Assembly: GCA_029964075.1 (NCBI GenBank)
Contig: CM057129.1
Coordinates: 11,337,430-11,401,429 of the forward strand
Length of the DNA stretch: 64,000 nt
DNA from: Patiria pectinifera
Taxonomy: Eukaryota; Echinodermata; Asteroidea; Valvatida; Asterinidae
Direction of reading: 5' to 3'
In this document: piece after piece, positions 3,115-29,086 of the stretch
Numbering within the stretch: position 1 is the first letter of the stretch
Layout of the letters: the number at the start of each line of letters is the position of its first letter
The notes under the pieces: model-generated
Seen by the model: the letters and a program-made list of their open reading frames with translations, nothing else
Database searches by the model: none
Told to the model about the DNA's origin: nothing
Made by a program: the position numbers and the translations under genes

Positions 3115-3249
3115 ATTTTGAACAATGGCCAGTGCATAGACAGCTGTCCGAGCTCCATGCTACTCGCGCCAACCGACCAAAGTAAAGTGCCCGGCAGCGA
3201 CCAAATCCGATTGGTTGGCGGCAGGGACCAATTGGAGGGCCGATTGGAG
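3115..3249 (+). CDS. Receptor exon: end of furin-like repeat and start of SRCR1
   Basis: Acceptor TTTTACAG, donor GTAAGA, phase 0 at both ends. It encodes the tail of a furin-like repeat ([12 protein letters not shown]) and then the SRCR opening IRLVGG...GRLE. The exon starts inside a furin-like repeat, so at least one coding exon precedes it. I found no such exon in 1-3114. Confidence 0.85.

Positions 3250-29086: not shown

Follow-up and report, generated by a model that had tools for sequence, protein, structure and literature searches.

In invertebrates, SRCR genes are mostly treated as large, shuffled repertoires of the immune system. SRCR domains of group A have six cysteines and are coded by more than one exon, and in DMBT1 SRCR domains are accompanied by CUB and ZP domains. 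Furin-like repeats are likewise found in several settings, among them PCSK5/6, FRAS1 and the R-spondin family, whose members are secreted and carry two furin-like repeats followed by a thrombospondin type 1 domain. In the accessible text of earlier reports, SRCR domains are joined to multiple Ig domains and a C-terminal trypsin in cnidarian proteins (PMC5119243); a survey of 29 species places Ig_3 among the leading partner domains of SRCR proteins in zebrafish and also records SRCR expansions in sponge and sea urchin (PMC10855680); amphioxus SRCR proteins show a greater diversity of combined domains (PMC2575513); and in a sea cucumber most SRCR domains belong to group A and the domains that accompany them vary widely (PMC13228809). 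A first-pass annotation of the locus described here had stated that SRCR and Ig domains occur together in some metazoan receptors, and the first two of these sources bear this out for metazoan proteins. No description of furin-like repeats and SRCR domains in one protein was found in the accessible text of the literature searched, supplementary domain tables aside; the two terms co-occur in PMC4546598 (a fish cytokine), PMC3827937 (90K/HIV), PMC8836196 (TMPRSS2) and PMC9296861 (proprotein convertases), all unrelated by title. The furin-like/SRCR/Ig order may sit unremarked in some table or database.

The window, that is, the whole stretch of 64,000 nucleotides under analysis, corresponds to C1:11337430-11401429 in a genome of which 613.5 Mb in 1,020 contigs were searched; negative coordinates count back from window position 1 along the same chromosome, in the 5' direction. 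From open reading frames, splice scores and HMM matches we assembled a model of 21 exons extending from -3956 to 29086, coding for 1,452 residues and open at its 5' end, with introns that are GT-AG throughout and match in phase. Nineteen of the exons lie inside the window, all on the plus strand, and two furin-like exons are located upstream, at -3956 and -218. The order within the window is SRCR–(two furin-like repeats–SRCR)x3–EGF-like–four Ig–membrane helix–62-residue tail. The first-pass annotation had pairs of furin-like repeats alternating with SRCR domains four times. The alternation itself was recovered, but with three pairs between SRCR domains in the window, and the furin-like repeats placed before the first SRCR do exist but fall upstream of the window, on the exons at -3956 and -218. 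The 14 sequences used to train the SRCR HMM came from other parts of the same genome; the furin-like and Ig HMMs were built from parts of the receptor gene itself, so that the E-values they give for it are inflated.

SRCR-A is divided between an exon at 3115..3249, which first completes a furin-like repeat (acceptor 7.1 and donor 6.1, phase 0-0; number 3 of 21 in the model and number 11 of 29 in the full gene, with a counterpart in the second copy described below), a middle exon at 3688..3775 (own-genome SRCR HMM E 1.1e-7), whose weak donor (-0.6) keeps its GT in both copies, and a final exon at 8002..8181 (HMM E 1.9e-10, phase 1-1). The furin-like pair between SRCR-A and SRCR-B occupies 10441..10740; this block has no Furin-like_2 match in the Pfam scan, yet its eight-cysteine pattern is exact, and the E-values of 7e-20 and 4e-18 that it obtains from the FU profile come from a profile trained on these sequences. 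SRCR-B starts in 11396..11612, which covers the beginning and middle of the domain (HMM E 4.3e-18; the joined domain reaches 1.1e-32 with Pfam SRCR), continues in 12370..12494 with most of the remainder (HMM E 1.8e-8, phase 2-1), and ends in 13052..13301, where its final residues are followed by furin-like repeats (HMM, splice sites and eight-cysteine pattern; weak donor, 0.1). The end of a furin-like repeat and the start of SRCR-C share 13818..13992, placed by HMM and splice sites, and the rest of SRCR-C is coded by 14872..15179 (HMM E 1.2e-20; Pfam SRCR 6.1e-30). The furin-like pair preceding SRCR-D, at 15968..16227, was identified by HMM, splice sites and the eight-cysteine pattern. SRCR-D itself spans 17020..17201 (start and middle, HMM E 8.9e-11), 19689..19890 (most of the remainder, HMM E 1.4e-10) and 20350..20532, an exon delimited by its splice sites that contains the final SRCR-D residues and the EGF-like module together. 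Following the intron at 20533-21185, Ig1 (21186..21488; Pfam I-set E 2.9e-13), Ig2 (23156..23422; I-set 1e-17) and Ig4 (26859..27125; I-set 1.6e-21) are each coded by a single exon of phase 1-1, and Ig3 is split between 24045..24192 and 24540..24667, the latter placed by HMM and splice sites (joined domain: Pfam Ig_3 4.6e-18, I-set 6e-18). The last exon, 28788..29086, was defined by its open reading frame, splice sites and hydrophobicity, and codes for the membrane helix, the 62-residue tail with one tyrosine, and the stop codon.

A search with this last exon returned an identical translation at a second position, C1:11087922-11088218, on the opposite strand. The second locus (copy 2) is inverted, lies ~280 kb from the window copy and aligns with it in colinear blocks that are 89-98% identical. 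On the window side the homology ends at a gap of 500 N at -12137..-11638; upstream scans found no convincing signal peptide for a first exon there, because of this gap. Copy 2, in which no N occurs in the 140 kb read, has eight more upstream exons: one for a putative signal peptide, the others for furin-like repeats and a further two SRCR domains (SRCR-alpha and SRCR-beta). The full gene as read from copy 2 has 29 exons over ~58 kb and runs from Met to stop for 1,945 residues. All 28 introns are GT-AG with consistent phases, and three of the donors score below 1 (-0.6, 0.1 and 0.7). The complete order is signal peptide, one furin-like repeat, SRCR-alpha, two repeats, SRCR-beta, three repeats, SRCR-A, two repeats, SRCR-B, two repeats, SRCR-C, two repeats, SRCR-D, EGF-like module, four Ig domains, membrane helix and tail. 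As exons 1-8 are missing from the window copy in the assembly, this complete structure comes from copy 2 alone. A gene start at 3115, where the first-pass span began, is ruled out by the exons at -3956 and -218 and by the complete copy 2; the full gene is larger than that span, with six SRCR domains and twelve furin-like repeats. The locus also illustrates how, when a gap in the assembly adjoins a duplicated block, 8 of 29 exons of such a gene, roughly a quarter of the protein, can escape annotation.

The inverted copy reaches well beyond the receptor gene, with window -11637 to ~63945 corresponding to ~C1:11056308-11126425 in blocks mostly 84-98% identical; it is rearranged beyond window 41.7 kb and one side ends at the gap. 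That the block ends at a gap, and that homology continues to ~63945 with rearrangements, favours a haplotype copy misplaced in the assembly, which we regard as the likely origin from these alignments; it may instead be a true inverted duplication. Within the Ig3-Ig4 intron the window carries a 112-bp minisatellite of ~7.5 copies (25072-25907), and in copy 2 the alignment passes over approximately window 25239-26536, so that most of the minisatellite is missing there. Several neighbouring features were also noted. Pieces of what appears by eye to be a threonyl-tRNA synthetase gene lie at ~-27000 to -12270, across the gap from the receptor gene, and upstream of copy 2, at ~C1:11211194, a 350-residue frame resembles by eye a rhodopsin-type seven-helix receptor. 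Two collagen-C1q genes on the plus strand of the window (36908-37903 and 60445-61362) each consist of a long single frame with a start that looks signal-like by eye, and give Pfam E-values of 9.5e-24 and 1.4e-26 for C1q and 1.6e-14 and 6.6e-14 for Collagen, respectively. To the eye, a fragment at 43981-44331 (plus strand) resembles a third C1q domain, and reading frames at 47901-49749 (plus strand) resemble a LINE-type reverse transcriptase.

The four SRCR domains in the window (E 5.6e-29, 1.1e-32, 6.1e-30 and 1.9e-25) and the two in the upstream part of copy 2 (8.6e-30 and 9.4e-33) all score above the Pfam cut-off, making six out of six. Each has six cysteines and is split across two or three exons, and all six belong to group A. 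They are 38-53% identical to one another. The furin-like repeats are less readily matched. Furin-like_2 exceeds its cut-off of 28 bits in the blocks before SRCR-A, SRCR-C and SRCR-D (34.7, 29 and 29.5 bits), the first of these blocks being mostly upstream of the window; of the three upstream blocks of copy 2, two fall below the cut-off (17.3 and 27.3) and the third lies above it (43.6). Overall, three of the six blocks have either no match or one below the cut-off, and in two of the other three the margin is narrow. By the strict eight-cysteine pattern the full gene contains 12 furin-like repeats. The first-pass sequence of EGF, four Ig domains and one membrane helix stands for the four Ig domains, all I-set above the Pfam cut-off (E 2.9e-13 to 1.6e-21), and for the single hydrophobic helix preceding the 62-residue tail; the EGF-like module scores 15 bits with EGF_3, below the cut-off of 28.5, has seven cysteines in its segment and was folded by single-sequence prediction with low confidence (pLDDT 60). 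Signal peptide and membrane helix were assigned by eye and by hydrophobicity. CUB, ZP, kringle, trypsin, TSP1 and kinase domains were absent from the Pfam matches of all pieces scanned, and the Pfam scan of the window-side protein gave no fibronectin type III match.

Comparison of the two copies shows how the coding sequence has been maintained. In the 21 exons common to both, 78 of 4,362 positions differ and there is no indel; 15 of the changes are seen as residue differences. The Nei-Gojobori estimates are dS 0.065 and dN 0.0049, a ratio of 0.075, and control calculations in which these bases were read out of frame gave ratios of 4.8 and 2.7 for the two wrong frames. By part, dN/dS is 0.056 for the furin-like/SRCR region and 0.131 for the less constrained Ig region, and all changes are synonymous in the EGF linker (two) and in the helix and tail (four). 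The second Ig3 exon (24540..24667) taken alone, with 2.5 synonymous and 2.5 nonsynonymous changes, gives no sign of constraint. The splice-site AG and GT are kept at all 21 exons in both copies, the last exon having no donor. These substitution patterns indicate that the coding sequence is under strong purifying selection, with both halves of the protein constrained.

The same comparison bears on whether the furin-like/SRCR and Ig parts belong together. Nine consecutive junctions, from 16228/17020 to 27126/28788, were each taken as the best-scoring donor and acceptor of a region placed by eye around the reading frames, and all nine are phase-consistent, an agreement expected at ~5e-5 under random phases. 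The intron that joins the two sides, between the EGF-like module and Ig1 (20533-21185), is 653 bp long in both copies, with 639 of 653 positions identical. Neither copy has AATAAA or ATTAAA in it, which is weak evidence, since 12 of the 20 introns of the window model contain one of these motifs and 8 do not. Two genes, one for a furin-like/SRCR protein that terminates behind the EGF-like module and one for a separate Ig receptor, would find some encouragement in the unspliced EGF exon, which meets a stop three codons past its donor, and in the hydrophobic ATG frames that exist in the joining intron of both copies. However, the intron offers no start exon with a phase-compatible donor: the one such frame in the window has a sole, weak donor (0.4) of phase 2 that cannot join Ig1, and the one in copy 2, of 29 codons, has no donor at all. 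The best-scoring, phase-consistent splice sites span the join and are kept in both copies, and we consider two genes highly improbable. Splice phases, constraint across the copies and the content of the joining intron led us to reject this arrangement, which the first-pass annotation had named as one of the cases that would overturn its reading. A single receptor gene is most likely, given the phase-consistent joining splice sites, the exon shared by SRCR-D and the EGF-like module, the lack of a poly(A) motif or start exon in the joining intron, and the constraint on both sides of it.

The six SRCR domains were compared at their cation sites with a DMBT1-like row. In the accessible text of PMC7043408, the functional cation site 2 of DMBT1 SRCR8 consists of D1019, D1020 and E1086, and site 3 of D1020, D1058, D1059 and N1081. 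The site-2 residues D, D and E are intact in three of our six domains (beta, B and C); at these positions alpha has N-D-E, A has S-D-K and D has A-D-G. Three or four of the six domains could thus bind ligands in the usual cation-dependent way. The 62-residue tail has a single tyrosine, Tyr1920, in the motif SSYVEI, the same in both copies. The ITIM consensus is [SIVL]-x-Y-x-x-[ILV], and SSYVEI fits this ITIM-like or SH2-docking pattern, a short motif that is often met by chance. The protein terminates in VDIV, an ending of a type that can be a PDZ ligand, this too being a short motif and weak evidence. No kinase or other recognised domain was found in the tail, the best 25 of 29 Pfam matches of the helix-and-tail piece all being below cut-off.

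Relatives of the gene were sought across the genome with several queries. SRCR domains are abundant: the search gave 1208 first-look candidates, and all 150 that were scored passed the cut-off. An SRCR set of this kind, along with split genes and collagen-C1q genes, would suit an invertebrate deuterostome; COX1 had no match in the assembly. A 339-residue furin-like/SRCR query gave at least 134 matches from the 119 scored of 1,148 candidates; outside the two copies these fall on the SRCR part at no more than 59% identity, and the few that enter the furin-like part cross stop codons. With a furin-like pair as query, all 23 candidates were scored and nine matched at E<=0.01, four of them in the two copies of the gene, another four in a cluster at C1:7.305-7.325 Mb and the last at C2:10164724; this search is insensitive, since of the 13 exons with a full furin-like repeat in the two copies it recovered four. 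The C1 cluster is a separate furin-like array, with 14 repeat matches at E<0.1 over C1:7305475-7328900, and was rejected as a second gene of the same order, as no SRCR and no Ig match occurs within C1:7302001-7332000. The tail matched only the two copies, plus one weak match at E 0.94. These insensitive SRCR, furin-like and tail searches found no second locus with the same domain order, and a diverged relative of that order may exist elsewhere in the genome. That the six SRCR domains are only 38-53% identical to each other indicates no recent expansion of the array.

From the exon structure, reading frame, domain order and conservation between copies we infer that the product is a one-gene type I membrane receptor, probably a constitutive adhesion or scavenger receptor for extracellular matrix, debris or microbial polyanions. 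The membrane-distal SRCR array would bind ligands through a cation-dependent surface as in DMBT1 and MARCO, with beta, B and C, together with the N-D-E domain alpha, as the binding modules and A and D as spacers or protein contacts. The furin-like pairs could act as rigid, cysteine-rich spacers and the EGF-like module as a hinge, and the Ig stalk would project the SRCR array and may make adhesive contacts of its own; its likeness to Robo, Dscam and contactin appears generic. The tail would act by recruitment, its SSYVEI tyrosine docking an SH2 protein, and its C-terminus possibly binding a PDZ domain.

Two other roles have to be weighed against this one. CD6, which binds CD166, shows that SRCR domains can have specific protein partners, and the Ig stalk and SRCR domains of the present gene might do the same in a developmental or neural adhesion or guidance receptor uninvolved in immunity. 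Strong constraint, the failure to find a second locus, a tail without a recognised signalling domain, and an Ig region closest in sequence to titin, Robo, Dscam and contactin all count in favour of such a role. We nonetheless think it rather unlikely, as I-set Ig domains are generic and do not point to any guidance family, and three of the SRCR domains keep the full cation site 2 that is used for broad ligand binding. The first-pass annotation had suggested a lineage-specific recognition receptor, and recognition as such fits these three intact sites; a fast-evolving, diversifying immune receptor, like the SRCR repertoires of sea urchin, is a different matter and finds no support in the dN/dS of 0.075 between the copies. 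SRCR domains are indeed abundant in this genome, expansions of them are described in the accessible text on sea urchin (PMC10855680), and the furin-like search may have missed diverged relatives, but the tail matches only the two copies and one sequence at E 0.94, and the divergence among the six SRCR domains speaks against recent expansion of the array. Because the paralogue searches were insensitive, we have slightly raised the probability given to diversification, which we still judge quite improbable, and slightly lowered that of a guidance role.

The constitutive adhesion or scavenger receptor remains our preferred reading. An SRCR gene that appears to be single, to be strongly constrained by purifying selection and to keep a long, fixed order of domains may serve a defined constitutive function. 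More tentatively, it could possibly represent an undescribed, phylum-wide class of single-gene marine-invertebrate receptors outside the diversifying SRCR repertoire, in which a cation-dependent furin-like/SRCR array is carried on an Ig stalk and signals through one conserved SH2-docking tyrosine. The gene provides a clean test case for asking whether SRCR cation sites fused to an Ig adhesion stalk serve scavenging, adhesion or signalling.

Set beside known systems, the protein is most likely a receptor of a familiar class, SRCR receptors with shuffled partner domains, in a domain order that was not found described in the literature searched; its position outside the named families, as proposed at first pass, agrees with the missing CUB, ZP, kringle, trypsin, TSP1 and kinase domains and with the literature search. 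The cnidarian proteins likewise combine multiple SRCR and multiple Ig domains in one invertebrate polypeptide but, in the accessible text of PMC5119243, end in trypsin, whereas here no protease is matched and furin-like repeats, an EGF-like module and a membrane helix are present. For the furin-like region the sole PDB match is R-spondin-2 (E 1.8e-4), with which it shares the eight-cysteine spacing; unlike the R-spondins, the receptor has a membrane helix and no TSP1 match, and its furin-like pairs alternate with SRCR domains, an order not matched by R-spondins, convertases or FRAS1. Tandem I-set domains are shared with Robo, Dscam, contactin and sidekick, Ig1, Ig2 and Ig4 here being single phase 1-1 exons, but there are only four of them, without a fibronectin type III match and with an SRCR/furin-like array on top. 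Arrays of SRCR domains are also found in CD163, DMBT1/SALSA and neurotrypsin. The top PDB match of SRCR-B is CD163 by whole-chain score, with 109.1 bits for the best single domain shown, and DMBT1 gives 114.7 bits with one domain and has cation-site residues partly in common. The CD163 type (group B) has eight cysteines, in contrast to six in all six domains here; DMBT1 differs by its CUB and ZP domains and neurotrypsin by its kringle and trypsin, none of which has a Pfam match in our protein. From the multi-SRCR scavenger receptors in general, it is set apart by the furin-like repeats interspersed in its array and by the Ig stalk that precedes the membrane.
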